64,000 nt of DNA from Crossiella sp. SN42. Lineage in GTDB: Bacteria; Actinomycetota; Actinomycetes; Mycobacteriales; Pseudonocardiaceae. Positions 48,439-62,790 of this stretch are shown here, piece by piece. Both the position numbers and the translations under genes were made by a program. Each line of letters begins with the position of its first letter. The first letter of the stretch is position 1. The notes below the pieces were generated by a model. That model ran no database searches. It was given only the letters and a program-made list of their open reading frames with translations, and was not told where the DNA came from. The DNA lies in NCBI RefSeq assembly GCF_023897065.1, contig NZ_JAMHIV010000001.1, positions 496,001-560,000 on the forward strand, in the 5' to 3' direction.

Positions 48439-49629
48439 TCAGGGTTGGTCCTCGCTCTCGGCCGGGTCGCGCCGCAGCCGGTGCAGCGCGAGGGCGGCGA
48501 GGAGGCGGGCGCCGTCGGCGAGGACGGTGTCGTCGAAGACCGCCTCCGGTGCGTGGTTGTGCGCCGCGCTGGCCGGATCCCGGTCGGCCGGGCAGGCGCC
48601 CAGCACCAGGTACGCGCCGGGAACCCGTTGCAGCACATAGGAGAAGTCCTCCGCCGCCGGCAGTGGACGGGGGGCACGCAGGTACCGGCCGGCACCGAAG
48701 AGCGTGCCCACCACCCCGGCCGCGAACGCCTCCTCTGCCGGGTGGTTCACCGTGGCCGGGTAGCCGAGCGCCTCCTCGACCTCCACCGTGGCGCCGTGCG
48801 CGGCGGCGATCCCGTGCAGCAGCCGGGTGATCCGCTCGATCAGGCCGGTGCGGGCGGCAGCGGAGAAGGCGCGGACGGAGACGGTGAACCGGGCCTGCTC
48901 CGGGATGACGTTGCCCGCGTGCCCGGCCGCGAACGCGGTGGGGGTGACGACCACCGGGTCGAAGGCGTCCATCGTGTTGCCCGGCAACGCTTCCAGGGCG
49001 GCGACCAGCGCGCACGCCACCGGTATCGGGTTGCGCGCCAGGTGGGGCATGGCGCTGTGTCCGGCGCGGCCCCGCACCGTGACCCGCAGGGTGTCGGCCG
49101 AGCCGAGGATCGGGCCAGGGCGGCTCACGAAGATCCCGCGCGGCAGCAGGGCGGAGAGCACGTGCAGCGCGTAGGCCGCCACGGGCGGTTCGCCCGCGGC
49201 GGCCAGCACGCCTTCCTCGATCATGATCCGGGCGCCGCCGTGGTGTTCCTCCCCCGGCTGGAACATGAGGATCACGTTGCCGTGGAAGGATTCCCGGTGC
49301 AGCAGCCGGGCCGCTCCCACCAGCATCGCGGTGTGCAGGTCGTGTCCGCAGGTGTGCGCGGGGACGCCGTCAGGGCCGGGCAGCGCGTCCATGTCCGCCC
49401 GCAGCAGCACGGTCGGTCCAGGACCCTGCCCACGCCGGACGGCGGTCACCGAGCTCAGCCCGGTCCCGGTGCCGACCTCCAGGTCCAGCCCGGCCAGCGC
49501 GTCCAGCACCGCCCGCTGGGTCCGCGGCAGGTGCAGCCCGGCCTCCGGCTCCGCGTGCAGCTGGGCGCGCAGGCGCCGCAGGCCGGGCAGCAGGTCGCCG
49601 TCGGGGGTCAGCGGGGCGGGTGCAGGCAC
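48439..49629 (-). CDS. M20-family amidohydrolase (aminoacylase-like)
   Basis: A 396-aa metallohydrolase with LLRADMDALPG, AHTCGHDLHTAMLVGAARLL, MFQPGEEHHGGARIMIEEG and the dimerisation motif GRAGHSAMPHLARNPI, in the M20D order. Metal ligands Asp, His and Glu are in place. GTG start at 49629 overlaps the LuxR gene by 22 nt. These enzymes hydrolyse N-acyl amino acids or peptides. In a peptide cluster it could trim, deacylate or self-protect, but this is inference. Confidence 0.87.
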   Translation of the reverse strand: MPAPAPLTPDGDLLPGLRRLRAQLHAEPEAGLHLPRTQRAVLDALAGLDLEVGTGTGLSSVTAVRRGQGPGPTVLLRADMDALPGPDGVPAHTCGHDLHTAMLVGAARLLHRESFHGNVILMFQPGEEHHGGARIMIEEGVLAAAGEPPVAAYALHVLSALLPRGIFVSRPGPILGSADTLRVTVRGRAGHSAMPHLARNPIPVACALVAALEALPGNTMDAFDPVVVTPTAFAAGHAGNVIPEQARFTVSVRAFSAAARTGLIERITRLLHGIAAAHGATVEVEEALGYPATVNHPAEEAFAAGVVGTLFGAGRYLRAPRPLPAAEDFSYVLQRVPGAYLVLGACPADRDPASAAHNHAPEAVFDDTVLADGARLLAALALHRLRRDPAESEDQP

Positions 49630-50279
49630 ACCGACTCCGTCCCGGTGCAGTCGCAGGGCTCGAGCCGGCCGGTGAGGTTCATCGCGGTCATGACCGCCAT
49701 CGTGCGGTCGTGCACGTCGAGCTTCCGGAAGATCCGCTGCCAGTAGGTCTTCACGGTGGCCTCGCTCAACGACAGCGCCCGCGCGATGTGCGAGTTGGTC
49801 TGCCCGTCGGCGGCGCGCAGCACCACCTGGATCTCCCGCGAGCTGAGCCTGGCCGCGTTCGGCCGCGCCGCCCGCAGTTCGGGCCGCTCCGGCCCGCCGG
49901 CGGCCAGCACCGCGGTGGTGACCTGTTCCGCGGTGGCCTGCCACGGGATCGTGCCGCTCACCCCCGCGGACTGCGCGGCCAGGGTGAGCAGGTCCCGCTC
50001 GCCCACGGTGAGGAGGGTGACCGGCGGTGGCGCCAGCGCGAGCACCTCCTCCACCAGTGGCCGGATGTCCCCGCGGGTACTGGTGATCACCACCCGTGGC
50101 CGGGTGCGGCGGATCGCCTCCACCGCCTCGGCCGGGGTGCCAACGGTGCCGACCAGGTCCACCCCGGCACACCGGGACAGCGCCTGGATCACGCCGCTGG
50201 TCGCTATCGATCCGTCGTCCACCACGAACACCCGGGTGCCCGGGTCCTCGTACTCCTCCTCCACCACTGAGTCCCCCAT
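49608..50279 (-). CDS. Atypical LuxR-type response regulator
   Basis: A 223-aa regulator with a receiver-like N-domain (TRVFVVDDGSIATSGV) and a GerE helix-turn-helix (LSSREIQVVLRAADGQTN, LSEATVKTYWQRIFRKL). The phospho-acceptor Asp position is occupied by Thr/Ser in RPRVVITSTRGD, so ordinary phosphorylation is unlikely. No kinase is adjacent. It overlaps the M20 gene and probably regulates the cluster. ATG at 50279 has a weak ribosome site. Confidence 0.82.
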   Translation of the reverse strand: MGDSVVEEEYEDPGTRVFVVDDGSIATSGVIQALSRCAGVDLVGTVGTPAEAVEAIRRTRPRVVITSTRGDIRPLVEEVLALAPPPVTLLTVGERDLLTLAAQSAGVSGTIPWQATAEQVTTAVLAAGGPERPELRAARPNAARLSSREIQVVLRAADGQTNSHIARALSLSEATVKTYWQRIFRKLDVHDRTMAVMTAMNLTGRLEPCDCTGTESVCLHPPR

Positions 50280-50293
50280 TCGCCACGCGTCGA

Positions 50294-51013
50294 TCAGGAA
50301 AGGAACACGTGCCACACGTTCGGCGTCGCAGCACTGTCCACTTCGGACATCACAGCCAGCTCGGCGAAGCCGCGGAACAGCAGGCGCGCGGACCGCCCGC
50401 TCCGGCGGCCCACCGCCGCCACGAGGGCGGCCGCCTCCTCCCGGCTCGGCCACAGCGCCAGCTGCTCCCGCACGTACCTGGCCTCGGCCGGACCGGTGGC
50501 CGGGGCGAGGCAGGCCGCGAGCGCCACCTCGTCGGCCGGGCGCAACAGCTCCAGCACGTAGCAGAGGCCACCGGGGGCCAGCCGGTCCAGCACCGCGCAC
50601 AGCCCGTCCACCGGATCGGGCCACAGCGCGAGGGTGAGGTGGACGAGGGCGAGGTCGAACTGACCCGCCTGAGCCCCGGCGCCGGCCGGCCCCAGATCCT
50701 CAGCGCCCGCTTCGAGCACGGTGACCCGGTGGTCGAGGGCGAACCGGTCCCTGGTCGCGGCGACCGCCGCGGCGGCGGGATCGACGCCGACGAGCTCCGC
50801 CGCGGGAAGTTGCCTGCGCAGGATGTCCAGCACCTCGCCGTGACCACAGCCCACGTCGAGCACCCTGGACGGCGTCCGGCCCAGTTCGGCCAGCGCCAGT
50901 GCCACCGCGGTGGCGCCGAGAACCCGGCCGAAACGCCGGTCGCAGGCCGAACTGACCCGGACCAGATCCGGATTGACAAACCATTCTTGCGCGCGGAATC
51001 TCGCGGATTCCAT
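50294..51013 (-). CDS. SAM-dependent methyltransferase
   Basis: A 239-aa class I methyltransferase with LDVGCGHGEVLDILRRQ, ELVGVDPAAAAVAATRDRF, FDLALVHLTLALWPDP and LAPGGLCYVLELLRP. ATG at 51013 follows GGGGGAC; a TTG at 51025 is less likely. It lies 14 nt upstream of the LuxR gene and is probably in one operon with it. A terminal-amine methyltransferase is part of plantazolicin biosynthesis, so this is a candidate, but it is not close in sequence pattern to any known one. Confidence 0.82.
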   Translation of the reverse strand: MESARFRAQEWFVNPDLVRVSSACDRRFGRVLGATAVALALAELGRTPSRVLDVGCGHGEVLDILRRQLPAAELVGVDPAAAAVAATRDRFALDHRVTVLEAGAEDLGPAGAGAQAGQFDLALVHLTLALWPDPVDGLCAVLDRLAPGGLCYVLELLRPADEVALAACLAPATGPAEARYVREQLALWPSREEAAALVAAVGRRSGRSARLLFRGFAELAVMSEVDSAATPNVWHVFLS

Positions 51014-51254
51014 TAAGTCCCCCAACCCCCAGGCTGGTCACATGCTCTCCATGCCGCATGCCCAAGGCCAGCGTACCGGAAAGCGGCAATAGTCCGACCA
51101 GACCAGCCTTGCCCTGCCAATGAGCTAGCTCGTGGGAGCGACCGGAATTGTGCGCAAATTTGCGCCGAGTGCGACGGATTGACCCCTAGAACTTTCGTCG
51201 CTAGGTTCTGCGCATCTTATCGCGAAAAGATTATGATCCAAAATGGGGGAAAAG

Positions 51255-51671
51255 ATGTTGTGGAGGTGTGCCGCGCTGGCCGCGGTGTTGTCGCTGAGCG
51301 GGCTGCCCACCGCCGAGGCGGCGCCCAAGCCCGCGGTCTCGGCCAAACCGGCGAAGAAGCTGCGGGACGGGGACACCATCGCCGTCTCGGTGCGCCACTT
51401 CGCACCGGAGAAACTGCTGGTCGTCGCCCAGTGCGCGGTGGTGGAGCAAGGCGCGCTGGCCTGCAACCTCGCCGAGTGGAGCGGGATCTCCACCGACCCG
51501 CACGGCGCGGGCGAGACCACGATCCCGGCCCGCCGCACCTTCGCCGGGGTGGTCGGCGACCACAAGCCCTGGGGCACCGTGGACTGCACCACGATCAAGG
51601 GCGGCTGCCTGGTGGTGGCCTCCAACCAGGTCGACCTGACGGCCAGGACGGCCATCTCCTTCCACCACTGA
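51255..51671 (+). CDS. Neocarzinostatin-family secreted apoprotein
   Basis: A 138-aa precursor: signal peptide to about residue 24 (PTAEA), then a seven-strand Ig-like domain. VVAQCAVVEQGALACNLAEW matches the first disulfide of neocarzinostatin (same 10-residue spacing), and WGTVDCTTIKGGCLV the second, with a 2-residue insertion. RRTFAGVVGDHKPWGTVDC and TAISFHH complete the family pattern. Such proteins bind enediyne or other aromatic ligands. No enediyne PKS lies in the window. The ATG at 51255 follows GGGGGAAAAG; 51243 has no site. Confidence 0.88.
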   Translation: MLWRCAALAAVLSLSGLPTAEAAPKPAVSAKPAKKLRDGDTIAVSVRHFAPEKLLVVAQCAVVEQGALACNLAEWSGISTDPHGAGETTIPARRTFAGVVGDHKPWGTVDCTTIKGGCLVVASNQVDLTARTAISFHH

Positions 51672-51746: not shown

Positions 51747-52595
51747 ATGACCACCAACACCGCGGTCCTCGTACGGGACCTGCGCAAGACCTACCGGGGC
51801 AACCTCGCGGTCGACGGGGTCGGCCTGGACATCGCGCACGGCGAGATCTTCGCCCTGCTCGGTCCCAACGGCGCCGGGAAGACCTCGGTCGTGGAGATCC
51901 TCAACGGCCACCGCCGGCGGGACTCGGGCACCGTGCAGGTGCTCGGCGCCGATCCCGGCTCGGCCGGTCCGGCCTGGCGGGCCAGGGTCGGCATCGTCTC
52001 CCAGGAAGAGCTGGCGTTCCCGGAGCTGCCGGTCGTGGATCTGTTGCGGCACTTCGCCGGGTACTACCCGCGACCGCGAGATCCCGACCAGCTGGTCGAG
52101 GCGGTCGGGCTGACCGAGAAACGCACCGCGCGGGTGCAGCAGCTCTCCGGCGGGCAGCGGCGGCGCCTGGACGTGGCGCTGGGCATCGTCGGCGGGCCCG
52201 ACCTGTTGTTCCTCGACGAACCGACCACCGGGTTCGACGCCGAGGCGCGCAGGCAGTTCTGGGAGCTGATCAAGGGACTCGCCGCGGCAGGCACCACGAT
52301 CCTGCTGACCACGCACTACCTGGAGGAGGCCGAGTACCTCGCGGACCGGATCGGCCTGATGGCGGGCGGGAAGCTGGTCGACATCGGCCCGGCCGACCGG
52401 GTCGGCCGCACCGGGCAGGACCTGGCGCGGGTCAGCTGGGACGCGCCCTCAGGGGCGAAGCACGTGGACACCGACACGCCCACCGGCACCGTGCTGGAGC
52501 TGGCCGAACGCTACGGCGGCGAGGTGCCCGGCCTCATCGTGCGCCAGCCCACCCTGGAGGACGCCTACCTGCGCCTGATCGGAGAACAGCGATGA
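51747..52595 (+). CDS. ABC exporter ATP-binding protein (DrrA-like)
   Basis: A 282-aa ATPase with Walker A GPNGAGKTSVVEIL, signature LSGGQRRRLDVALGIVGGP, Walker B LLFLDEPTTGFD and the drug-exporter C-terminal tail PTLEDAYLRLIGE. It overlaps the permease gene by 4 nt. In polyketide and peptide clusters such pairs export the product or confer self-resistance. Confidence 0.9.
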   Translation: MTTNTAVLVRDLRKTYRGNLAVDGVGLDIAHGEIFALLGPNGAGKTSVVEILNGHRRRDSGTVQVLGADPGSAGPAWRARVGIVSQEELAFPELPVVDLLRHFAGYYPRPRDPDQLVEAVGLTEKRTARVQQLSGGQRRRLDVALGIVGGPDLLFLDEPTTGFDAEARRQFWELIKGLAAAGTTILLTTHYLEEAEYLADRIGLMAGGKLVDIGPADRVGRTGQDLARVSWDAPSGAKHVDTDTPTGTVLELAERYGGEVPGLIVRQPTLEDAYLRLIGEQR

Positions 52596-53419
52596 CCAGC
52601 CCATCCACCCGGCCCGCGCCCCACCAGCCCTCGACACTGGCGATCGGCCTGCGCCGGGGAGGCGTGGAGATCCGCCAGATCCTGCGGCAGAAGGACACGC
52701 TGATCTTCACCTTCACCTTCCCGGTGATCATCATGTTGACCTTCGGCGCGGTGTTCAACCGGGAGATCCCCGGCACCGGCGTGGACTTCCGGCAGTACTT
52801 CATGGCCGGGATGATCGCCACCGGCGTGATGGCGGCGGCCTTCATCACCCTCGGCGTCGGCATCGCGATCGAGCGGGACGACGGCACGCTCAAGCGGCTG
52901 CGCGGCACGCCCATGCGCGCGAGCTCGTACTTCATCGGCAAGTTCGTCATGGTGTTCGCGCTGTGCCTCGGGCAGGTGGTGCTGCTGCTCGGGGTGGCCA
53001 CGCTGTTCCTGGGACTGAGCCTGCCGGAGACCGGCGCGCGCTGGCTCACCTTCGCCTGGGTGATGGCGCTCGGCGTGCTCGCCTGCACCGTGCTGGGCAT
53101 CGCGATCAGCGCGGTGCCCAGGAGCGGGCGCAGCGCGGCGGGTGTGGTGGTGCTGCCGTTCATGGTGCTGCAGTTCGTCTCCGGCGTGTTCTTCGTCTTC
53201 ACCCAGATGCCTGCCGGTGTGCAGCAGGTCGGGGCGCTGTTCCCGCTCAAGTGGATGGGCCAGGGCCTGCGCTCGGCGTTCCTGCCGGACGTGCTGCAGC
53301 GGGTGGAGGCAGCCGGATCCTGGGACCACGGCACCACCGCGCTGGTGCTCGGCGCGTGGGTGGTCGGCGGCACGCTGGTCTCGTTGCTGACTTTCCGCTG
53401 GTACCGGCAGGCTGTGTGA
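52592..53419 (+). CDS. ABC-2-type exporter permease
   Basis: A 275-aa membrane protein with six predicted helices and the ABC-2 pattern FPVIIMLTFGAVFNREIPG, LKRLRGTPM and SGVFFVFTQMPAGVQ. It partners the ATPase. It lies just upstream of a two-component system (7 nt), so exporter and sensor form one operon, as in antibiotic-responsive detox modules. Confidence 0.9.
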   Translation: MTSPSTRPAPHQPSTLAIGLRRGGVEIRQILRQKDTLIFTFTFPVIIMLTFGAVFNREIPGTGVDFRQYFMAGMIATGVMAAAFITLGVGIAIERDDGTLKRLRGTPMRASSYFIGKFVMVFALCLGQVVLLLGVATLFLGLSLPETGARWLTFAWVMALGVLACTVLGIAISAVPRSGRSAAGVVVLPFMVLQFVSGVFFVFTQMPAGVQQVGALFPLKWMGQGLRSAFLPDVLQRVEAAGSWDHGTTALVLGAWVVGGTLVSLLTFRWYRQAV

Positions 53420-53426
53420 GACTGGC

Positions 53427-54587
53427 GTGGTGAACGCGGGGACGGGGGGCGACGCGCACGCGTTGCACGTCGCCTCGGCTGTCGCGGTGGCCCTGGTGGC
53501 CGTGCTGTCGGCCGTCTGGGGCGCACCGTGGCACGCTTACCCGCTGCTCATCGCGCTTGTCCTCTGGTACGTGACGCTGGCCAGGCCGCTGGTGGGCCGC
53601 AGCACGGCGACCGCGCCAGGGGTCCGGGCCATCGGGTACCTGGCCGGGGCGATCGCGCTGGTCACCGCACTCGTGCTGGCCTCCCCGCCGGCCGTGGTGC
53701 TGGTCGTGGTGCTCTACACGCACACGTTCTGGCTGCTCGACCGGCTCTGGCTGGCCACCCTGGTCATCGCGGTGGCCACCACCGCGACGGCGCTGGCGGT
53801 GGCCGCCCAGTTCGGCGGCTCCGGGCTGATCGGGCTGGCCGTGACCGGCGGCGCGGTCAGCACCTTCCTCATCGGCACCGGGGTGGGGTTGCTGGTACGG
53901 CGGCAGGTCGAGCAGGAACGACAGCGCGACCTGCTGATCCGCGACCTGGAAAGCGCGCGGGCGGAGCTGGCCGCGGTCTACCGCAGGGAGGGGGCGCGGG
54001 CCGAGCGCGAGCGGATGGCCCGCGACATCCACGACACCCTGGCCCAGGGCTTCACCAGCCTGGTCATGCTGGTGCAGACCGCCAAGGCGGCCTTGGACCG
54101 CGACCTGGACCTGGCCAGGCGGCAGCTCGCGATGGCCGAGCACACCGCGCGGGACAACCTGGCCGAGGCCAGGGCCCTGGTACACGCCTCCCAGCCGGAC
54201 GGGCTGCGGCACTCCGGGCTGGCCGGCGCGGTGCGCAGGCTCGCCGAGCAGCTCGGCGCGCTGGCGAGCCTGACCTGCGTGGTGCGCGCCGACGGCTTCA
54301 CCGGGGCGCTGACGGCCAACGAGGAGGTCGCGATCATGCGCGCGGTGCAGGAGGCCTTCGCCAACATCCACAAGCACGCCGGGGCCACGGCCGCCTCGGT
54401 GACGCTCACCTCGCGGGCAGGCGGCACCGCGCTGGAGATCACCGACAACGGTCGCGGCTTCCGGCCTGCCGAGGCCGACGGGTACGGACTCAGCGGCATG
54501 CGCGCGCGGATCGAGGAGATCGGGGGCTCGGTGGTGGTGACCAGTGCGCCCGGCGAGGGCACCAGGGTCAAGGTGTGGCTGCCATGA
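53427..54587 (+). CDS. NarX/DesK-type sensor histidine kinase
   Basis: A 386-aa kinase with about five N-terminal helices, a short linker coiled coil and HisKA_3 motif RERMARDIHDTLAQGFTSL, then N-box VQEAFANIHKHAGA and G boxes NGRGF and YGLSGMRARIEEIGG. It overlaps the response regulator by 4 nt. Being in the same operon as the exporter, it may sense its substrate. Confidence 0.9.
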   Translation: MVNAGTGGDAHALHVASAVAVALVAVLSAVWGAPWHAYPLLIALVLWYVTLARPLVGRSTATAPGVRAIGYLAGAIALVTALVLASPPAVVLVVVLYTHTFWLLDRLWLATLVIAVATTATALAVAAQFGGSGLIGLAVTGGAVSTFLIGTGVGLLVRRQVEQERQRDLLIRDLESARAELAAVYRREGARAERERMARDIHDTLAQGFTSLVMLVQTAKAALDRDLDLARRQLAMAEHTARDNLAEARALVHASQPDGLRHSGLAGAVRRLAEQLGALASLTCVVRADGFTGALTANEEVAIMRAVQEAFANIHKHAGATAASVTLTSRAGGTALEITDNGRGFRPAEADGYGLSGMRARIEEIGGSVVVTSAPGEGTRVKVWLP

Positions 54588-55219
54588 CGGCCGCGCTGCG
54601 GGTGGTGATCGCCGACGACCACCCGGTGGTGCGGGAGGGCCTGCGCGGCATGCTCACCCTGGACGGCGCCATCACCGTCGTCGGCGAGGCCGCCTCCGGA
54701 CGCGAGGCGGTCGAGCTCGGCGAGCGGCTGCGCCCGGATGTGGTGCTGATGGACCTGCGCATGCCGGACACCGACGGCGCGACCGCCACGGCGCAGCTGG
54801 CCCGGCGGGCGCCCGGCGTGCGGGTGCTCATCCTGACCACCTACGACTCCGACAGCGACATCCTGCGCGCGGTGGAGGCCGGCGCCGCGGGCTACCTGCT
54901 CAAGGACACCCCGCGCCAGGACCTGGTGGCCGCGGTGCGCGCCGCGGCACGCGGGGAGACGGTGTTCGCGCCGATGGTGATGGACAAGCTGCTGAGCCGG
55001 GTGCGGATGCCGAAGGTGGAGCCGCTGACGCCGAGAGAGGTCCAGGTGCTGCGGCTGGTGGCAAGGGGGCTGACCAATGCCGAGATCGGCGGTGAGCTGG
55101 CCATCGGCGAGACGACGGTGAAGAGCCACCTGCTGAAGATCTTCGCCAAGCTCGGGGTGTCGGACCGCACCGCGGCGGTGACCACCGCGCTCGTGCAGGG
55201 CGTGCTGACCCTGCCCTGA
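54584..55219 (+). CDS. NarL-family response regulator
   Basis: A 211-aa regulator: receiver with VVIADDHPVVREG, phospho-acceptor in VVLMDLRMPDTDG, Lys in YLLKDTPRQ, and a GerE HTH (LTPREVQVLRLVARGLTNAEI). The standard phosphorylation residues are intact, in contrast to the LuxR protein at 49608. It ends 5 nt before the stop of the CPBP protease gene on the other strand. Confidence 0.92.
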   Translation: MTAALRVVIADDHPVVREGLRGMLTLDGAITVVGEAASGREAVELGERLRPDVVLMDLRMPDTDGATATAQLARRAPGVRVLILTTYDSDSDILRAVEAGAAGYLLKDTPRQDLVAAVRAAARGETVFAPMVMDKLLSRVRMPKVEPLTPREVQVLRLVARGLTNAEIGGELAIGETTVKSHLLKIFAKLGVSDRTAAVTTALVQGVLTLP

Positions 55220-55224
55220 GCGGG

Positions 55225-55896
55225 CTACCAGTCCCGGCTGGGCGGCAGCTCCGGCACGGTTGCGGGCGCGGGCGCCGCCTCGGGCGGAGGTCGTGCCGCG
55301 AGCACGGCGTTGTGCGCCACGTGCGCGGCCGCCGCCGCGAGCAGGCCCGCGGACTCGGCCAGCGCGGTCAGCACGAGGGCCAGCACCAGCAGGTAGGGCA
55401 AGCCGCGCCGGCCGTGCCGGGGCAGGTGCAGCACGGTGAAGCCCGCCACGGACAGCGCCGCGGCGACCAGCCAGGGCAGGCCGGCGGCGGTGAGCGCGAG
55501 GACCGCGGCCGCTCGCCAGAGCAGCTCTTCGGCCACCGCGGCGGCGGCCTGCAACGGCAGGCCGGACAGCCGTGGCCGCCAGCGCCTGCCGGCCGCGCCG
55601 GAACGCCTGCGGGCCAGGGCCGAGGCCAGCAGCGGCAGTCCGGCGCCGACCACCAGCCCGGCTCCGGCCGCGGCCACCGGGTGTGCGGCGGGCGGCCACG
55701 CCCGCGCCGCGGTGAGCACCACGGCCGCGGCGGCGCCGAGGGCGGTGGTGGCCAGGCCGTACACCCGCACCGGCGCGCGGCGCACCGCCAGGGTGAGTCC
55801 CGCGGCCCGGCCGCGCGCGAGCAGGCCGAGGCACCAGGGCAGCGCGAGATGGGCCGCCACGAGCACCGCCAGCAGCCCCACCGCGGCCGGGTGCAC
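55225..55896 (-). CDS. CPBP/CAAX-type membrane protease (candidate leader peptidase)
   Basis: A 223-aa, strongly hydrophobic protein with about six helices. The CPBP hallmarks are present in order: VAEELLWRAAAVLAL with the EExxxR motif, FTVLHLPRHG with the second-motif His, and AAHVAHNAVLA with the third. Plantazolicin clusters encode a protease of this family (PznE) that is proposed to remove the leader. GTG at 55896 lies 6 nt after the dehydrogenase gene, the last in the modification operon. Confidence 0.83.
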   Translation of the reverse strand: MHPAAVGLLAVLVAAHLALPWCLGLLARGRAAGLTLAVRRAPVRVYGLATTALGAAAAVVLTAARAWPPAAHPVAAAGAGLVVGAGLPLLASALARRRSGAAGRRWRPRLSGLPLQAAAAVAEELLWRAAAVLALTAAGLPWLVAAALSVAGFTVLHLPRHGRRGLPYLLVLALVLTALAESAGLLAAAAAHVAHNAVLAARPPPEAAPAPATVPELPPSRDW

Positions 55897-55902
55897 GGCG
55901 GG

Positions 55903-56760
55903 TCAGCCCGCGGGGGCGGCCGGCGCGGGCGGGCCACCCGGAGTGCCGATCAGCAGGGCGTAGAGCGGGGCGTCGTCCACCCCGTTGTGGTCGGGCAGCA
56001 GCGCGGTCAGGCCGGCGTCCAGGAAGCCGCCGACCGGACGGCCGGCCAGGCCGTAGGCGGTGGCCAGCAACAGGATGTTCTGCGCGAGGTGCCCGGCCTC
56101 CATCAGGGCGAACCGCAGCGCACGCTGCCCGTACTTGAAACGCGAGCGCCAGAAGGAGGCGGAGAGCACGAGCGTCACCGAGGCCGAGGGCGGCAGGCCC
56201 GGCGGGTTCAGGCACTCGCCCAGCGCCGTGGGCGAGACCGCGCCCAGGTCGGCGAGCACGTTGCGGAAGGGGTCGAAGTGGTACAGCCCGTTCGCGGTCA
56301 GACCGGGCACGCGCTGGGCGATGACGAAGACGTCCAGGGGGTAGAGCGCGCCACCGGAGGGCGTGGGCCGCAGCGGACGCTCGCCCTCCTGCCCGGAGAT
56401 GCCGTAGCTGTGGCGCAGCAGGCCGGCGAGCACCGGCAGCCCGACTGGACCAGCCCCGAACGACATCGCGCTGCGGCGGCCGGTCAGCACGGTGACCAGG
56501 TCGGCGGCCAATGGTTCCGGCTCGGCCAGGGCCAGCGCCGGTCTGCTGCCGTACCGCCTGCCCGCACGGGTGGTCATGGTGCGCAGGGCGGCCGAGCGTT
56601 CCAGCGCCTGCGCGCCGGGCACGTCCCACTGGGCGCTGCTGAGGTACAGCTTGGACGCCTCGAAGTAGTCCTCCGCCGGGTCGCCCGCGCCGGGCAGCCC
56701 GCCACCGGAGTAGACGACGTCAACCAGGTTCGCGCTGTCGACCACGATCTGGTCGCTCAT
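55903..56760 (-). CDS. SagB-type azoline dehydrogenase (B protein)
   Basis: A 285-aa FMN-dependent nitroreductase-fold enzyme: RRSAMSFGAGPVGLPVLAGLL, PTPSGGALYPLDVFVIAQ and ALMEAGHLAQNILLLATAYGL follow the SagB/ThcOx pattern with the FMN-binding Arg-Arg-Ser. It oxidises azolines to aromatic azoles. It lies 13 nt after the YcaO gene. Residues in the N-terminal region (DYFEASKLYLSS) are also typical of the family. Confidence 0.9.
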   Translation of the reverse strand: MSDQIVVDSANLVDVVYSGGGLPGAGDPAEDYFEASKLYLSSAQWDVPGAQALERSAALRTMTTRAGRRYGSRPALALAEPEPLAADLVTVLTGRRSAMSFGAGPVGLPVLAGLLRHSYGISGQEGERPLRPTPSGGALYPLDVFVIAQRVPGLTANGLYHFDPFRNVLADLGAVSPTALGECLNPPGLPPSASVTLVLSASFWRSRFKYGQRALRFALMEAGHLAQNILLLATAYGLAGRPVGGFLDAGLTALLPDHNGVDDAPLYALLIGTPGGPPAPAAPAG

Positions 56761-56773
56761 ACCGGTGCTCCTG

Positions 56774-58141
56774 TCAGGGGAAGGGATGCGGAAGCGGGTT
56801 GAGCTCCGCCGCTTGCGCCGGGGTGCGCAGGCCGAGCCGCACCGGCAGCTCGCGCAGCCGCCTGGTGCCGAGGAAACGCCTGCGGTATCCGCAGTCCAGG
56901 GGTTGCAGTTGCGGGGAGAAGACCTTGACCACGTGCCCGCCCGCCTCGGCCACGTCCGGGCTGGTGACGTTGACCGCGATGAGGTCCACCCCCTGCCGGC
57001 GCAGGCGGTCGACCAGGGCGTCGCGCAGCACCCCCGGCGTGTCGTCGGGCAGGGCGGGCAGGTCGGCCAGATCGCTGCGCCGGCGGCTGCCGTCGAGGAA
57101 CTCGGTGGCGGGGATGTGCGTGGGGTGCGCGTAGAGGGAGATGTGGTCGTCGAAGGTGCGCACGGTCTCGTCGAAGTCCCCGTGCGGGTCGACGACCTGG
57201 CCGTCGCGCTGTTTGAACACCACCCAGCCGCGGGTGCTGACCGCCTCGCACACCGCCTTGGTCACCGCGCGCAGCGGGGTGGCGCCCGCGGCGGCGCCCA
57301 GGCCCAGCGGAGCCAGCGGCGAGCTGCGGTTGCGCACCACGGCCAGCACCGTCGGCACGCCGCTGACCGTGCTGAGGTCGACCGCGGAGACCTCGATGCC
57401 CGCTGGGCGCACGTGCCGGTGGAAGAACTCCGCGAGGTCCGGATCCGACTCGACCGCGACCAGCGGCATGGACAGCCGCTGGTACCAGGTGATCATCACC
57501 GCGTCCCGTTCGACGAGCTCGAGGATCCCGCTGACCAGCGCCTCGTCCACCGTGCTGCCGTAGGCCAGGCCGTTGCTGGTCGGATAGCCCACCGGATTGA
57601 CGTCCATGAGATCCGCGCGCAGGTAGACCAGCTGCGCCGGCACCTGCACCAGCGCCCCGTCGGCCAGCCGTCTGCCTTCGGCCCACGGCAGCGGGGTGTC
57701 CTCGCCGAAGGGCACGAACGGCGCGCCCTCCCGCGCGTACTGCCAGTCGGCGAAGGGGGTGAACTCCGCGGGGGACACGCACACCAGGCCCCGCGCGGTC
57801 AGTTCGCGGTAGCTGCCGTGGCGGAGCTGCTCGAACGGGACCCAGGCGCCGCTGTAGCGCTCGACGGTTTCCCCGATCGCGCCCAGCCGGGCGCTGAGCC
57901 TGCTGGTGCCGCATCCCCCGTTCGACCGGTTGGTCATGGTGCCGACCAGCATCCGGGCGTCGCACGCCTCGCCGCCGGTGGAGAAGGCGTACAGCTCGTC
58001 CATGTCGTGCATGCGCTCGTAGAGCCTGCGCACGATGCCCACGGCAGGGGACAGGAACGCCGACATGACCCGCTCGGACTCCGTCTTCGGCGTCCACGCG
58101 GTGGCCCCGGCCAGCGCCAGCTCGCCGATCGCGGTGCTCAT
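56774..58141 (-). CDS. YcaO-domain cyclodehydratase (D protein)
   Basis: A 455-aa YcaO protein: GGCGTSRLSARLGAIGETVERYSG, LVSGILELVERDAVMITWYQ and KAVCEAVSTRGW contain the ATP/Mg-binding Glu and Arg residues of the family. The C-terminus ends in PLPHPFP, the PxPxP tail that marks azoline-forming YcaO enzymes. It activates backbone amides of Cys and Ser with ATP and cyclises them with the help of the C protein. ATG overlaps the C-protein stop by 4 nt. Confidence 0.93.
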   Translation of the reverse strand: MSTAIGELALAGATAWTPKTESERVMSAFLSPAVGIVRRLYERMHDMDELYAFSTGGEACDARMLVGTMTNRSNGGCGTSRLSARLGAIGETVERYSGAWVPFEQLRHGSYRELTARGLVCVSPAEFTPFADWQYAREGAPFVPFGEDTPLPWAEGRRLADGALVQVPAQLVYLRADLMDVNPVGYPTSNGLAYGSTVDEALVSGILELVERDAVMITWYQRLSMPLVAVESDPDLAEFFHRHVRPAGIEVSAVDLSTVSGVPTVLAVVRNRSSPLAPLGLGAAAGATPLRAVTKAVCEAVSTRGWVVFKQRDGQVVDPHGDFDETVRTFDDHISLYAHPTHIPATEFLDGSRRRSDLADLPALPDDTPGVLRDALVDRLRRQGVDLIAVNVTSPDVAEAGGHVVKVFSPQLQPLDCGYRRRFLGTRRLRELPVRLGLRTPAQAAELNPLPHPFP

Positions 58142-59136
58142 CGGCCGGCCTCCACCGAGCGCCCGAACCAGACCTGCGGGTAGCCGACGCCGCGGGCGGG
58201 GGAACACCGCGGGCACCTCGGCACCCGCAGCACGCGGTGGTGCGCCACCGCGACGCCCTCGGGGCCCGCCGTGACGGTGGTGAGCCCGCCGGGCACCGAC
58301 TGCCACGCCTGCGACTCCAGTCCGGCGCGCTCAGCCAGGCGGTCCACCACCAGACCGGCCTGGACCAGGTTCAGCCCGGGGTGCCGGGTGGAGTGGTCGG
58401 GGGCCGGGCCGAGCAGGACGGCCTCGGCGAGCCGGTCCGCGATCGACTCGTCCGGGAACACCGAGGCGCGGCGCAGCCGGAAGCAGTGGTAGCAGGCGGA
58501 CTCCCCCGGCACGATCCAGGGACCGACGGTGGCGTGCTGGCCGTCGTAGGGCAGCACGGCCAGCCAGGGCCGCCCGCGCGGCTCGGCCAGCGCGCGCTCG
58601 TTCCACTCCGCGAGCAGCGGATCCTCCTCCTGCGCGCCGACCACGACGGCGATCCCACCGGGGTCCTCGCCGACGGTGGCGGTGACGCGCAGCCCGCTGT
58701 CCCGGCACTGCTCCCGCAGGAGTTCGGCGAGCCTGCCCGCACCCAGCACGGTGACCGCCCGCTCGCGCAGGCGCCGGGCGATCTCCGCCCTGGCCACCGT
58801 GCCACCCGCCCGCCGCCACAGGCCCACCGGCACCGGCGCTGCCTGCTCGTCCTCGACCAGCTCCACCAGCAGCCCGGCCTCGGTCAGCCGGGCGAGCAGG
58901 GCCTCGATGCCGGGCCTGCGCTCGGCGGCCACCTCCGCCAGGTCCAGGGTCACGGCCCCGTCCCTGGCGCCTGCCAGGAACGCGGCGAGGAAGGCACGCA
59001 CCCCCGCTCCGGCGCAGCGGGTGACCACGCCACCCCGGCGGATCAGCACCTCCTCCCCCGCCGCCAGCACGCGGGCCTGCCCATCCACCAGCCAGGTCCG
59101 CCGCGCGGGCGCCACCGGTCCTCGGGTTGTGGTCAC
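58138..59136 (-). CDS. E1-like/ThiF-type C protein of azole synthetase
   Basis: A 332-aa protein. The N-terminal 90 residues look like a winged-helix recognition domain for leader peptide (AGEEVLIRRGGVVTRC, IEALLARLTEAGLLVEL). A degenerate Rossmann-like middle follows, and two CxxC pairs (ESACYHCFRLR and VPRCPRCSP) give the structural zinc site of E1-like TOMM proteins. It presents the precursor to the YcaO enzyme. GTG at 59136 follows AAGGGGAA. C and D are separate genes, as in plantazolicin and thiopeptide clusters. Confidence 0.88.
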   Translation of the reverse strand: MTTTRGPVAPARRTWLVDGQARVLAAGEEVLIRRGGVVTRCAGAGVRAFLAAFLAGARDGAVTLDLAEVAAERRPGIEALLARLTEAGLLVELVEDEQAAPVPVGLWRRAGGTVARAEIARRLRERAVTVLGAGRLAELLREQCRDSGLRVTATVGEDPGGIAVVVGAQEEDPLLAEWNERALAEPRGRPWLAVLPYDGQHATVGPWIVPGESACYHCFRLRRASVFPDESIADRLAEAVLLGPAPDHSTRHPGLNLVQAGLVVDRLAERAGLESQAWQSVPGGLTTVTAGPEGVAVAHHRVLRVPRCPRCSPARGVGYPQVWFGRSVEAGR

Positions 59137-59150
59137 GTCGGTTCCCCTTC

Positions 59151-59927
59151 TCACTCGGCGTGGGCCAGGCACGCGCGGGCGGCCTGCACGAGGTAGTCCG
59201 CCAGCGGACGGGCCGGGCGGCCCAGCGCGCCGGCGAGCACCGGCGAGACCTCACGGTTGCCCGCCGAGGTGCACCAGGTCATGTACCCGGCCCGATGGGC
59301 GGCGGAGGTGGGGTCGAACCCGACCTGGGTCATCGCGGAGGCGAGCATCTCCTCGTCCAGCCCCACGTACACCAGCGGCCGCCCGTGCAGGTCGCCGAGC
59401 AGCTCACACGCCTGTTTCATGGACACCACCGCGGGGCCGGTCACCTCGTAGGCGGCCTGTCGCCGCGCCGGCTCCTCGGCCAGCCGGACCACCAGGTCCA
59501 GCACATCGGCGGCGTCCACCCACGGCGCGCCTGCCGACTGCCAGGCGGTGTACATCGCGCCGCCGGTCTCGTAACGGGAGTTCCAGGCGAGCTCCTGCCC
59601 CAGCGGCGCGCACCGCAGCACGCACCAGTCGGCCGCGCCCTCGATCACGGCCGCCTCCCTGGCCGCGACCAGGGCGGGGAAGGAGCCCGGCGGCGCCTGC
59701 GCGGCGTTGCGGACCGACAGCACGAACGTGGGCAGACCGCACTCCGGCAGGCTCGCCGCGAACTCGGCGACGAGGTCGCCCGGTTCGAAGGTCGCGGCGT
59801 CGATGAGGACCACCTCGGCCTCGGCCAGGTCCTCGACCGGGGTGAGGCGCGGCGAGGACCGCAGTGCGGCCAGCACACTGCGACGGAGACCGAAATGCAG
59901 CACACGGAATGCCTTTTCGCGCGACAT
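59151..59927 (-). CDS. NmrA/SDR-like protein, first gene of the azole operon
   Basis: A 258-aa protein of atypical-SDR (NmrA-like) layout: DAADVLDLVVRLAEEPARR, YEVTGPAVVSMKQACELLGDL and a C-terminal cap. The nucleotide-binding glycine motif is degenerate (RVLHFGLRRSV), so NAD(P) use is doubtful. ATG at 59927 after AGAGG; 59942 lacks a site. As first gene of the operon it may be a tailoring or scaffold protein. Its precise role is unknown. Confidence 0.7.
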   Translation of the reverse strand: MSREKAFRVLHFGLRRSVLAALRSSPRLTPVEDLAEAEVVLIDAATFEPGDLVAEFAASLPECGLPTFVLSVRNAAQAPPGSFPALVAAREAAVIEGAADWCVLRCAPLGQELAWNSRYETGGAMYTAWQSAGAPWVDAADVLDLVVRLAEEPARRQAAYEVTGPAVVSMKQACELLGDLHGRPLVYVGLDEEMLASAMTQVGFDPTSAAHRAGYMTWCTSAGNREVSPVLAGALGRPARPLADYLVQAARACLAHAE

Positions 59928-60037
59928 CAGGCCTCTTTTCATAATTCGGGGTGCGATGCCACAACCGATGGTCGCGGACTCCACTGGCCGGGGCAATAAC
60001 GATCGAGGAGATCCGCTGTCGTCTCTTTGGTGGACGT

Positions 60038-60064
60038 TTGGAGAACGCGGGACCCACTTAGGCT
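60038..60064 (+). promoter_or_regulatory. Candidate promoter of the precursor gene
   Basis: TAGGCT (60059-60064) fits the actinomycete -10 and TTGGAG (60038-60043) a -35, with a short 15-nt spacer. It lies about 50 nt upstream of the precursor start in the divergent spacer. Confidence 0.35.
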
Positions 60065-60113
60065 GGGCCCGCCGGGTGAATCCGGCATTGCTATTTGTGA
60101 AGGGAGGGATCCT

Positions 60114-60242
60114 GTGGAGAAGTTGTTCATCGAGACCGATGTTCCGGTCATCGAGTTCAGTACGCATGGTGAGGCCATGACCTACTTCGAACCGGTCGCG
60201 GCCTACTGCAGCAGCATCGTCTGTTGTTGTTGCAGCAGCTGA
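60114..60242 (+). CDS. Precursor peptide of a putative polyazole (LAP/TOMM) natural product
   Basis: A 42-codon gene with a strong AGGGAGG site 6 nt before its GTG start. The leader (1-30) is acidic and Phe/Val-rich (LFIETDVPVIEF). The core is YCSSIVCCCCSS: nine of its twelve residues are Cys or Ser, arranged as C-S-S, a hydrophobic Ile-Val pair, and C-C-C-C-S-S. The architecture recalls plantazolicin (Cys/Thr block, Ile-Ile, Ser/Thr block). It is divergent from the C/D/B/protease operon, the expected place for the substrate. Confidence 0.88.
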   Translation: MEKLFIETDVPVIEFSTHGEAMTYFEPVAAYCSSIVCCCCSS

Positions 60243-60254
60243 TCACCTTTTCCT

Positions 60255-60273
60255 GTCGGCGGTGATCGCCGAC
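60255..60273 (+). terminator. Attenuator-type hairpin after the precursor gene
   Basis: GTCGGCG and CGCCGAC form a 7-bp stem with a 5-nt loop, 12 nt past the stop. A second 9-bp hairpin lies at 60289-60320. Partial termination would give excess precursor over the downstream enzymes, a common RiPP arrangement. Confidence 0.55.
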
Positions 60274-60288
60274 CCGGCGGGACGGCCC

Positions 60289-60320
60289 GGGCGGGGCGCG
60301 ACCGCCGTCATGCCCCGCCC
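60289..60320 (+). terminator. Second hairpin between precursor and glycosyltransferase genes
   Basis: A 9-bp GC stem (60289-60297 with 60312-60320) and 14-nt loop, extendable by a further imperfect GCCCGG/CCGGGC pairing. Confidence 0.45.
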
Positions 60321-60358
60321 GTGGCCGGGCACGCCCGACTCTGTCTGCGGAGACCGCT

Positions 60359-62350
60359 ATGCGCGTACTGTTCACCACCTTCGCCGCGCCCTCGCACCTG
60401 AACCTGATGGTGCCGCTGGCCTGGGCGCTGCGCTGCGCCGGACACGAGGTGCGGGTGGCGAGCCAGCCCAACCTGGCCCCGGCCATCACCGAAGCCGGGC
60501 TCACCGCCGTGCCGGTCGGCCTGGAGCTGGACATGGCCGCGCACGTGCGGGCCACCGGGCGCATCCCCGGCGGGCGGTCCGTGCTCGACCTCGCCGAGAC
60601 CCGCCCGGACCGGCTGGACTGGCACTACGTGCGTGGGGCGCTGGCCCTCTACAGCACCGGGGTCTCGGCCTTCCTCGCCGATGACCGCATGCTGGCCGAG
60701 CTGGTGGACTTCGCGCGCTCGTGGCGGCCGGACCTGGTGGTGTGGGACGCCTTCACCTTCCCCGGCGCCATCGCCGCCAGGGCCTGTGGCGCCGCGCACG
60801 CGCGCTTTTTGTTCGGGCCGGACCACTTCGGCCGGATGCGCGCCCGGCTGCGCGAGCTGGCGGGGCAGCGCGCCCCCGAGGAGCGGGACGACCCGATGGC
60901 GGCGTGGCTGGCGGCCAGGGCCGGGCGCTTCGGCTGCTCCTTCGACGAGGAGCTCGCCCTCGGCCAGCTCACCCTCGACCCGATGCCAGCCTGGACCCAC
61001 GAGGTGGCCACCGCGAACCGGGCAGGCCTCCGGTTCCTGCCCTACGGTGGCGCGCTGGAGTGTCCACAGTGGATTCGCCAGCCACCCCCGCGGCCACGGG
61101 TGTGCCTCACCCTCGGCCTAGCCGCGCTGGCCTACGGGCTGCCCACTCCCCCGGTCGCCGAGATCCTGGCCGGGCTGGGCCGGCTGGACGTGGAGGTGGT
61201 GGCCACGCTCGACCGGGAGCAGGTGCCCGGCCCAGTGCCGGACAACGTCCGCCTGAGCGGTCCGGTGTCCCTGCCGGACCTGCTGCCGACCTGCTCGGCG
61301 GTGGTGCACCACTTCGGCGTCGGCACCATCGGCGCCGCGATGACCTACGGCGTGCCGCAGCTGCGGGTGCCGGACGGGGTGAACGTGTGGGGCGAGGCGG
61401 AGCTGACCCGCAGGCTCGTCGACCGCGGTATCGCGCTCGCGGTCGAGCCGGCGGAGTTCTCCCCGGCGGCGGTGGCCGAGCGGGTGACCCGGTTGCTGCG
61501 TGAACCCGCCTTCCGGCAGTCGGCGGAGCAGGTGCGCGGGGAACTGGCCGGCACCCCGAGCCCACACGACCTGGTGCCCCGGCTGGAGGAGCTGGCCGCG
61601 CGGCGGCGGCCGGGACCGGCGCCCGCGCCCGCCCTCCGGTACGGGCCGGCGGCCGCGCGCGTCTACGACCTCGTGCACCGGCACCGCGGGCGCGATCGCG
61701 CGGCCGAGGCGCGACAGGTCCTCCGGCTGGCGCGCTCGCGGCTGCCGTCGGCGAGCTCCCTGCTGGACGTGGCCTGCGGCACCGGCGCCCACCTGCGCAC
61801 CTTCGGCGAGGAGTGCGCGGAGGTGCATGGGCTCGACCTGTCCCCGGCGATGCTGGCCCACGCCGGCCGGGTGCCGGGCGTCACCGTGCACACCGGTGAC
61901 ATGCGCGCCTTCGACCTCGGCCGCACCTTCGACGTGGTGTGCTGCATGTTCGCCTCGGTCGCCTACCTGCGCGACACCGGTGAACTGGCCGCGGCCCTGG
62001 CCTCGATGGCCCGCCACCTGTCCCCCGGCGGGGTGCTGGTGCTGGAGCCGTGGTGCTTCCCCGAACGCTTCATCGACGGCTACGTGGGCGCCGACCTGTG
62101 CCAGGAGGAGGACCTGACCGTGGTCAGGGTGTCGCACTCGGCGCGGACCGGCGACCAGGTCGACATGCGGGTCCGGTTCGTCACGGCTGACGCGGGCGGT
62201 CTCACCGAGTTCGCCGAGGTGCACACCATGACCCTGTTCAGCCGCGCGGAGTACACCGAGGCGCTCACCGCGGCCGACTGCACCGCGGAGTACCTCGAGG
62301 ACGGGATGCCGGGCAGCACCTGCGGGGTTTTCCTGGGCGTGCGCAAGTGA
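60359..62350 (+). CDS. Glycosyltransferase fused to aminosugar N-methyltransferase
   Basis: A 663-aa single frame. Residues 1 to about 405 form a GT-B glycosyltransferase of the EryCIII/DesVII group, with SHLNLMVPLAWALRCAGHEV and the donor-site HHFGVGTIGAAMTYGVPQL. After a Pro/Arg-rich linker, residues ~423-663 match NDP-aminosugar N-methyltransferases (DesVI/TylM1 type): YDLVHRHRGRD, LLDVACGTGAHLRTFG, GDMRAFDLG and VLEPWCFPERFIDGYVGADL. It would attach and N-methylate an amino sugar. ATG at 60359 after GGAGA. No start or stop interrupts the fusion. Confidence 0.88.
   Translation: MRVLFTTFAAPSHLNLMVPLAWALRCAGHEVRVASQPNLAPAITEAGLTAVPVGLELDMAAHVRATGRIPGGRSVLDLAETRPDRLDWHYVRGALALYSTGVSAFLADDRMLAELVDFARSWRPDLVVWDAFTFPGAIAARACGAAHARFLFGPDHFGRMRARLRELAGQRAPEERDDPMAAWLAARAGRFGCSFDEELALGQLTLDPMPAWTHEVATANRAGLRFLPYGGALECPQWIRQPPPRPRVCLTLGLAALAYGLPTPPVAEILAGLGRLDVEVVATLDREQVPGPVPDNVRLSGPVSLPDLLPTCSAVVHHFGVGTIGAAMTYGVPQLRVPDGVNVWGEAELTRRLVDRGIALAVEPAEFSPAAVAERVTRLLREPAFRQSAEQVRGELAGTPSPHDLVPRLEELAARRRPGPAPAPALRYGPAAARVYDLVHRHRGRDRAAEARQVLRLARSRLPSASSLLDVACGTGAHLRTFGEECAEVHGLDLSPAMLAHAGRVPGVTVHTGDMRAFDLGRTFDVVCCMFASVAYLRDTGELAAALASMARHLSPGGVLVLEPWCFPERFIDGYVGADLCQEEDLTVVRVSHSARTGDQVDMRVRFVTADAGGLTEFAEVHTMTLFSRAEYTEALTAADCTAEYLEDGMPGSTCGVFLGVRK
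60373..60420 (+). repeat. 48-nt exact repeat shared by the two glycosyltransferase genes (copy 1)
   Basis: Identical over 48 nt to 62891-62938, within the N-terminal coding region of both genes; after one mismatch a further 20 nt are identical. It points to a recent duplication or gene conversion. Confidence 0.9.
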
Positions 62351-62487: not shown

Positions 62488-62790
62488 ATGGACCCGATCA
62501 CCCTTGCTGTCGGTGGGGGCCTGCTGATCATCGGATACCTCACCGGCCGGCTCACCCGGCGCAAGCGCCCGCCGGAGCCGGTCACCGCCGTGTGCGGGTG
62601 CGGTCACTCCCTTGCCCTGCACGACGTCGCCGACGGCGCGTGCCACGGGGAGAACGCCCGGCCCAAGTCCTACAACAAGAAGGGCGACTACGTCGGCACC
62701 GTGTACACCCGGTGCCCCTGCCGACGCTACGTCGGGCCCCAGCCGCTGGAGGACATCATCACCACGCGCTACCTCCCGCCCGCGCCCTGA
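62488..62790 (+). CDS. Small membrane-anchored Cys/His protein
   Basis: A 100-aa protein with an N-terminal membrane segment (residues 5-20), a basic stop-transfer (RLTRRKR) and a short domain with CGCGHSLALHD, a central Cys and CPC, a possible zinc site of the type seen in small actinobacterial proteins. Function unknown. It lies between the two glycosyltransferase genes, so it may be an intruder or an accessory of the cluster. Confidence 0.65.
   Translation: MDPITLAVGGGLLIIGYLTGRLTRRKRPPEPVTAVCGCGHSLALHDVADGACHGENARPKSYNKKGDYVGTVYTRCPCRRYVGPQPLEDIITTRYLPPAP

Follow-up and report, generated by a model that had tools for sequence, protein, structure and literature searches.

A divergent plantazolicin-type locus in Crossiella sp. 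SN42 with a probable aminosugar-decorated azol(in)e peptide as its product

The window analysed here, a stretch of 64,000 nucleotides from Crossiella sp. SN42 (contig NZ_JAMHIV010000001.1, positions 496,001 to 560,000), holds a short precursor peptide gene facing away from genes for azole formation; judged from its sequence, the locus is almost certainly of a divergent plantazolicin type. The gene cluster spans from about 49.6 kb to past the window end, about 70.4 kb, and it includes glycosyltransferase and aminosugar genes next to the precursor, so that its product is probably a plantazolicin-type linear azol(in)e peptide decorated with an aminosugar. A broader proposal, which is on balance favoured, sees here a lineage derived from plantazolicin that makes linear azol(in)e peptides bearing sugars, the first of their kind. 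N,N-dimethylvancosamine-type sugars would be added to the thiazole run by a glycosyltransferase clade of its own together with a flavin monooxygenase, and tailoring genes would have come and gone as the core residues changed. The original prediction, made from the peptide and azole genes, holds as far as it goes, but it missed the sugar and glycosyltransferase genes, the flavin monooxygenase, the methyltransferase, the exporter and the NmrA-like gene.

Precursor peptide and azole-forming genes

The precursor and the genes closest to its maturation are as follows.

60114-60242, plus strand: precursor open reading frame, GTG start, 42 amino acids, VEKLFIETDVPVIEFSTHGEAMTYFEPVAAYCSSIVCCCCSS
60114..60203, plus strand: leader of 30 amino acids, VEKLFIETDVPVIEFSTHGEAMTYFEPVAA, ending FEPVAA at the putative cleavage site
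60204..60239, plus strand: core YCSSIVCCCCSS, with nine of 12 residues Cys or Ser; stop codon at 60240-60242
59151..59927, minus strand: atypical NmrA-like short-chain dehydrogenase/reductase (SDR) protein, between C and the precursor
58138..59136, minus strand: C, E1-like leader-binding protein for thiazole/oxazole-modified microcin (TOMM) precursors, TIGR03882 53.0 bits (cut-off 36.9)
56774..58141, minus strand: D, YcaO cyclodehydratase, C-terminus NPLPHPFP, TIGR03604 292.7 bits (cut-off 219.25) and PF02624
55903..56760, minus strand: B, SagB-family dehydrogenase using flavin mononucleotide (azoline to azole), TIGR03605 95.5 bits (cut-off 78.4)
55225..55896, minus strand: CPBP/Rce1-like membrane protease, PF02517 36.8 bits (cut-off 22.4)
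50294..51010, minus strand: plantazolicin-type N-methyltransferase (BamL/BpumL-like) using S-adenosylmethionine, PDB matches BpumL (E 4e-16) and BamL (E 1e-12)

Regarding the precursor, the reading frame lies where it had been predicted, with the core then given for it, and a Shine-Dalgarno-like AAGGGAGG stands six bases 5' of the GTG; the frame is open further upstream (71 amino acids if counted from a TTG), and the ribosome-binding site and the related precursors point to the GTG as the start. The leader/core split was set after FEPxxA by analogy with plantazolicin, whose leader ends in FEPxAA and served as the model for this boundary. The only NCBIfam match of the precursor is TIGR04218, the plantazolicin family, with 24.4 bits and E 2e-5 against a cut-off of 45; because the score is under this curated cut-off, the precursor is a divergent plantazolicin-type peptide by sequence and no strict family member. 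As in the family, two nonpolar residues separate two Cys/Ser/Thr blocks of the core (CSS-IV-CCCCSS), with blocks of 3 + 6 residues versus 5 + 5-6 in the definition quoted from PMC4603692; the core opens with Tyr-Cys, not with the Arg-Cys typical of the family.

C, D, B and the CPBP protein all exceed the cut-offs of their curated models, lie on the minus strand (55225-59136) and are divergent from the precursor, as the original prediction had it, including the PxPxP tail of D. C matches LynD/TruD (E 2e-6) at residues 78-223 only; as for a RiPP (ribosomally synthesized and post-translationally modified peptide) recognition element, an N-terminal profile built from 7 sequences matched no such protein in the PDB, and the AlphaFold model of C is low in confidence (pLDDT 38). 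The CPBP protein is a candidate leader peptidase or immunity protein, with homologues in nine of the 10 other clusters compared and none seen in the Corynebacterium stretch. Counting that of the window, all 10 genomes that have the cluster also have the NmrA-like gene, which was not found in the Corynebacterium plasmid stretch; a fold search with a modest model (pLDDT 60) returned SDR proteins such as SimC7 and QOR2. Finally, the methyltransferase has 45-47% identity to that of the Arg-first clusters G001 and G002, where its gene is directly 3' of the precursor, and it is predicted from sequence to dimethylate the core N-terminus.

The comparison set behind these counts comprises 11 clusters, that of the window and those of 10 other genomes or plasmids, all 10 of which have precursors with a FEPxxA leader end and a Ser/Thr/Cys-rich core, encoded close to homologues of C/D/B or at least within one genome with them. 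The alignment of 13 precursor rows from 10 genomes or plasmids (G629 left out) has the G, F, E, P and A of the leader and one core Cys invariant, and with it a fourteenth precursor was found in G629 (E 2e-13); three genomes have two precursor copies per cluster. This recurrence bears on the idea that the 42-codon frame is spurious and that the YcaO/SagB operon has a non-peptide role. In favour of this idea, the frame is short, its start codon is GTG and its TIGR04218 score is under the cut-off; against it stand the invariant residues, the G629 precursor, the paired copies and the good ribosome-binding site, and no operon of this type devoid of a precursor was found among the relatives followed up, as 10 of 10 other clusters have one (G629's on another contig). 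A spurious frame is thus hardly credible, and the prediction of a new plantazolicin-like polyazole locus is borne out by the TIGR04218 match (under the cut-off), the maturase matches, the BamL/BpumL-like methyltransferase and the related precursors.

Between the precursor and the next gene there is a strong hairpin (60243..60358, plus strand; -69.8 kcal/mol, z -3.4), possibly a partial terminator or a processing site; by eye, it has no T-run.

Aminosugar genes beside the precursor

The genes that follow the precursor run beyond the window end, where positions are those of locus L003 (window position minus 58000).

60359..62350, plus strand: fusion of a glycosyltransferase and an aminosugar N,N-dimethyltransferase, 663 amino acids, TIGR04516 464 bits (cut-off 440)
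62488..62790, plus strand: protein of 100 amino acids, no family match, N-terminal membrane helix by eye
62877..64145 (window ends at 64000), plus strand: second glycosyltransferase, TIGR04516 486 bits
L003 6145-7089: ketoreductase/epimerase
L003 7086-8309: 3-C-methyltransferase, close to TcaB9 (E 6e-160)
L003 8282-8893, minus strand: RmlC-like epimerase, under the RmlC cut-off
L003 8907-10226, minus strand: nucleoside diphosphate (NDP)-hexose 2,3-dehydratase, PF03559
L003 10234-11343, minus strand: aminotransferase, nearest to 7b0d, 2oga and QdtB
L003 11353-12381, minus strand: flavin monooxygenase of the HsaA/Rv3094c type, at the far end of the cluster

The fusion starts 116 bases 3' of the precursor, and its PDB matches are 3wad (E 2e-103, the best for the glycosyltransferase part), the NDP-forosamyltransferase 4ldp (E 5e-97) and the N,N-dimethyltransferase 3bxo (E 1e-70, the best for the methyltransferase domain). 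Set against the enzymes needed to make a thymidine diphosphate (TDP)-bound 3-amino-3-C-methyl deoxysugar, the gene set would suit a TDP-3-amino-3-C-methyl-2,3,6-trideoxyhexose with N,N-dimethylation, save for TDP-glucose formation and 4,6-dehydration. Past the right end of the cluster, L003 13654-15138 encodes a flavin adenine dinucleotide enzyme like Rifampicin monooxygenase, below the family cut-off.

Sugar genes occur in three of the 11 clusters and in two genera: the window, and G584 and G629, which belong to another genus of the window's family (D 66% and 62% identical, respectively). The window proteins are 72-73% (aminotransferase), 64-65% (3-C-methyltransferase), 59-60% (2,3-dehydratase) and 50-53% (ketoreductase) identical to those of G584 and G629, and the epimerase, seen in G584 only, is 57% identical. 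In all three genomes the next same-strand gene after the precursor is a sugar gene: the window has the fusion there, G584 a glycosyltransferase, and G629 an aminosugar N-methyltransferase with 48% identity to the corresponding domain of the window fusion. G629 has the precursor, a second NmrA-like gene and a third glycosyltransferase on contig C11, and C, D, B, CPBP and two glycosyltransferases on contig C32, where a glycosyltransferase begins 12 bases past CPBP and continues the C-D-B-CPBP row. In the window, the precursor on one side and the flavin monooxygenase on the other flank the sugar genes; this monooxygenase has 54-61% identity to the copies next to four other clusters.

As for the glycosyltransferases, the second one of the window had 47 matches in 10 genomes, and the six best (query included) all came from the three sugar-bearing clusters; in a tree built from 30 of the 47 matches, these six form one clade (support 100/95), with the other three of G584 placed elsewhere. 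Regarding a possible polyketide neighbour, the nearest ketosynthase to the left on the window's contig is about 263 kb away, and there is none to the right of the cluster up to the contig end (150 kb); tblastn with two ketosynthase queries gave no match in the stretches taken from the window genome (G000, 118 kb), G584 (80 kb) and G629 (48 + 20 kb), and the same queries did match in G002 and G283, both of which have no sugar set. Because the association is conserved, the glycosyltransferases form their own clade and no ketosynthase is near, the sugar set is judged probably to be part of the peptide cluster.

The alternative that has to be weighed here is that the polyazole peptide is real and unglycosylated, the adjoining aminosugar and glycosyltransferase genes being those of another pathway. 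Several observations weigh against a glycosylated product, and some of them speak directly for this alternative. The sugar set is missing from the other eight clusters in the stretches compared (14-59 kb), and the four Nocardiopsis-family clusters have no sugar genes within 36-56 kb; in G584 the sugar genes do not interrupt the RiPP genes but stand on their right, with the monooxygenase on the left; in G629 the precursor is on a different contig from C/D/B, and no RmlC-like epimerase was found in the stretches compared. The window's cluster has no recognisable TDP-glucose synthase or 4,6-dehydratase (both could come from elsewhere). TIGR04516 is named as activator-dependent, and the scanned proteins include no recognisable P450-like partner. 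Neither idea about the sugar acceptor fits all three clusters: the G584 core has no Tyr, which excludes Tyr1 as the sole acceptor, and the 68 kb of G629 are devoid of a flavin monooxygenase. Polyketide synthases abound elsewhere in the window genome (67 ketosynthase matches), which makes sugar genes common there, and the check for a neighbouring pathway relied on ketosynthases. Two further points recall enediynes: the window has a chromoprotein-family gene (51243-51671) of a kind known from enediyne clusters, and the ammonia-lyase/aminomutase-type enzyme, the AMP-ligase and a small gene resembling an acyl carrier protein (ACP) by eye in G584 are reminiscent of enediyne side-chain genes. Against a separate pathway stand the ketosynthase-free stretches searched around all three clusters, a linkage kept in three genomes and two genera despite different gene orders, always with a sugar gene next to the precursor, the separate glycosyltransferase clade, and the G629 glycosyltransferase 12 bases after CPBP; taken together, they make it unlikely, if still to be reckoned with.

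A second alternative is that the glycosyltransferases serve self-protection, the peptide being inactivated in the cell and its sugar removed on export, as happens with macrolide glycosyltransferases; a distant kinship to the macrolide-inactivating enzymes (weak matches, far under the cut-off) is in its favour. However, a pathway to a C- and N-methylated aminosugar far exceeds what self-protection needs, and no glycosidase was recognised among the window-cluster proteins, although one in G584 narrowly exceeds the PF02449 cut-off, so this role is very improbable. An aminosugar as a lasting decoration of the peptide is the reading retained below.

Cores and tailoring genes across relatives

Among named genomes, the one relative of D to turn up was that of Nocardiopsis xinjiangensis. 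In genome surveys, relatives of D at E <= 1e-60 were found in six of 390 genomes in the window's family, four of 297 in the family of G342 and three of 394 in the class, these three genome sets overlapping. The cores of the related precursors are listed below; those of G001, G002, G013, G848 and the Corynebacterium plasmid start with Arg-Cys.

G584: ASSSIVCCCCS
G629: YCSSSSSHGSCA
Nocardiopsis xinjiangensis (locus L006, D 62% identical), two precursors in the divergent region: ASSSSLISCCCCS and ASSSSVVCCCCCA
G342: ACSSSVISCCCCA and GSSSSLVCCCCCS
G909: GCSSSVISCCCS and GCCSSSLVCCCCCS
G001: RCTTTIPCCCCSGG
G002: RCTSTIPCCCCSGG
G013: RCTTTTSTCSTCCCSS
G848: RCSSSSTCTCCCTG
Corynebacterium tuberculostearicum plasmid NZ_CP073097: RCSCSSSTCCVLCVKK

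With the same precursors, G283 appears to be the genome of Nocardiopsis xinjiangensis. The core on which the original prediction had focused is real but not isolated, since it belongs to a family with CCCC or CCCCC blocks.

The BamL-like methyltransferase was found at E <= 1e-15 in six of the 10 whole genomes (G000, G001, G002, G013, G629 and G848), which are exactly those with Arg- or Tyr-first cores, and it was absent at this threshold from all four with Ala- or Gly-first cores (G584, G283, G342 and G909). The Arg-first Corynebacterium plasmid has an annotated methyltransferase beside the cluster, where the window enzyme gave no match at E 1e-4. The motif DQxxAS occurs in the enzymes of five Arg-first clusters, as in BamL/BpumL, and the two Tyr-first clusters have DQMAAW and EQLALW instead. 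The flavin monooxygenase, for its part, is beside the five clusters with an Ile/Val/Leu pair in the core (window, G584, G283, G342 and G909) and is not in the stretches of the other six. A role of this enzyme as an aminosugar N-oxygenase was discarded: sugar genes are missing from the stretches compared for three of the four other clusters it accompanies (G283, G342 and G909), and none of its nine PDB matches is labelled a nitrososynthase.

The co-occurrence of tailoring genes with core residues has P values of 0.003-0.005 for the methyltransferase and 0.002-0.004 for the monooxygenase, on small, phylogenetically linked counts in which shared ancestry was handled solely by merging G001 and G002, and it is taken as indicative. 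For these tests, the Corynebacterium plasmid was coded as having the methyltransferase (from annotation and alignment), the Ile-Pro cores of G001 and G002 as having no aliphatic pair, and G629, which has no pair, as having no monooxygenase. The maturase tree groups the window with G584, G629 and the Nocardiopsis-type clusters, apart from all others (support 92); because of this grouping, the sugar set was either lost in the Nocardiopsis-type clusters or gained more than once.

Among the individual relatives, G584 (L039 896-14988) has an RmlA over the cut-off, a TylF-type O-methyltransferase, an ammonia-lyase/aminomutase-family enzyme, an AMP-ligase and four glycosyltransferases, together with an ACP-like protein and an ATP-binding cassette (ABC) exporter, both read by eye; its product might be a relative decorated even more heavily, aryl-acylated and multiply glycosylated. 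In the skin Corynebacterium tuberculostearicum plasmid NZ_CP073097.1, the gene table lacks the precursor (L051 9187-9357), whose neighbours are annotated as C, D, B, methyltransferase and ABC genes. The G909 D gene (L059 17893-19235) is in two frames, an apparent frameshift, in a cluster where two precursors and the other genes are present, and in G013 the cluster is split, with the methyltransferase, CPBP gene, exporter and regulators on contig C51 and the rest on C56.

Across the 394 class genomes, TIGR04218 matched 11 at E <= 0.01 and none over its cut-off; a motif scan of the short loci of these 11 genomes (with a wider stretch for five of the 10 foreign ones) returned a precursor only in G342 and G283. 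G294 has a weak match (L033 7942-8136, 15 bits) to a profile of nine precursors. The D matches in G083, G093 and the second copy of G013 were set aside as other YcaO loci, a motif search there giving no convincing precursor. In G655, which bears the same species label as the window genome, no relative of D was found at E 1e-60; compared with window 40-59 kb (a 19-kb comparison), this genome has scattered matches only, of 65-87% identity, and no empty site could be defined, so the region is strain-specific or the species label of G655 is loose.

The remaining genes of the cluster are those for regulation and export, and one of uncertain membership.

49608..50291 (start approximate), minus strand: orphan LuxR-type response regulator, 27-47% identity to homologues in nine other genomes
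51243..51671, plus strand: neocarzinostatin-family chromoprotein-type protein, secreted by eye, PF00960 and NF040680 (109.5 bits, cut-off 86)
51747..52595, plus strand: ABC transporter ATPase, probable exporter or immunity function, PF00005, 63-64% identity in G001, G002 and G584
52592..53419, plus strand: ABC-2 permease, PF01061, 61-66% identity in G001, G002 and G584
53427..54587, plus strand: sensor histidine kinase, 48-52% identity in G001, G002 and G584
54584..55219, plus strand: response regulator, 74% identity in G001, G002 and G584

Homologues of the LuxR-type regulator are near the cluster in nine of nine other genomes compared, a proximity that does not establish orthology, such regulators being common. 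The chromoprotein-type gene separates the methyltransferase gene from those of the exporter and has no ketosynthase in its vicinity, and its product might bind the polyazole or be a stray; a conserved role in the cluster was discarded, as its homologues in G584, G629 and G013 are away from the cluster, and its membership is uncertain.

Proposed product and known peptides

In the proposed pathway, C would bind the 30-residue leader and hand the core YCSSIVCCCCSS to D, which would cyclise Cys and Ser residues, up to nine of them, into thiazolines and oxazolines; B would then oxidise the azolines to azoles. Cleavage of the leader after FEPVAA would expose Tyr1, whose amine would be dimethylated by the BamL-like methyltransferase, a step suggested by the enzyme family and by its co-occurrence with Arg or Tyr at position 1. 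More speculatively, the HsaA/Rv3094c-type flavin monooxygenase may oxidise the peptide, perhaps at the Ile-Val spacer, possibly yielding a hydroxyl for glycosylation, as its co-occurrence with an aliphatic core pair hints. As for the sugar, the 2,3-dehydratase, aminotransferase, 3-C-methyltransferase, epimerase, ketoreductase and N,N-dimethyltransferase domain would supply an N,N-dimethylvancosamine-type TDP-sugar, to be attached by the two glycosyltransferases at Tyr or at the new hydroxyl, as the conserved linkage suggests. The ABC pair would export the product under the two-component system, and the product, like plantazolicin, is most likely a narrow-spectrum antibacterial.

The closest known system is plantazolicin from Bacillus amyloliquefaciens, with which the locus shares the short precursor, the core of two blocks around a nonpolar pair, C, D, B, a BamL-type N-methyltransferase, the CPBP gene and the ABC exporter. 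It differs by Tyr in place of Arg at position 1, by a second block that starts with four Cys, by the NmrA-like, flavin monooxygenase and aminosugar/glycosyltransferase genes, and by a precursor under the family cut-off. Another azole-rich ribosomal peptide, nocathiacin I, carries a vancosamine-like dimethylaminosugar. A reference title in PMC3917276 calls it a glycosylated thiopeptide; its macrocycle has a pyridine core, and neither a lantibiotic-type dehydratase nor a pyridine synthase was recognised among the scanned window-cluster proteins, so the locus is not classed with the thiopeptides.

Of the 13 plantazolicin clusters described in PMC4603692, 12 include the methyltransferase and 10 have an Arg-first core; the main text of this paper never uses the word glycosyltransferase. 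The gallolytisin TOMMs of the same source resemble the locus in their four-cysteine runs, their discrete cyclodehydratase and a D said to be most similar to that of plantazolicin, and differ by a Cys4-X-Cys4 core; the passage on them mentions no methyltransferase or sugar genes. Cacaoidin, a glycosylated lanthipeptide, combines an N,N-dimethylated N-terminus with an O-glycosylated Tyr in one ribosomal peptide according to PMC11447909, which calls the cacaoidin methyltransferase CaoSC a quite distant relative of BamL/BpumL; cacaoidin differs by its lanthipeptide chemistry. In the open-licence literature, neither a description of a glycosylated plantazolicin or linear azole peptide nor a paper with the motif strings of these cores was found, which is not proof of absence.

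In conclusion, if the proposal is true, the aminosugar is a new kind of decoration for the plantazolicin antibiotic class. Plantazolicin-type polyazoles are flat and poorly soluble molecules with very selective activity; natural aminosugar polyazoles would show evolution's answer to this poor solubility and selectivity, and their clusters would provide enzymes for polyazole glycosylation. The 11 clusters, with their matched changes in core and tailoring, constitute a natural experiment on substrate rules, pairing the N-terminal residue with the methyltransferase and the spacer with the monooxygenase.

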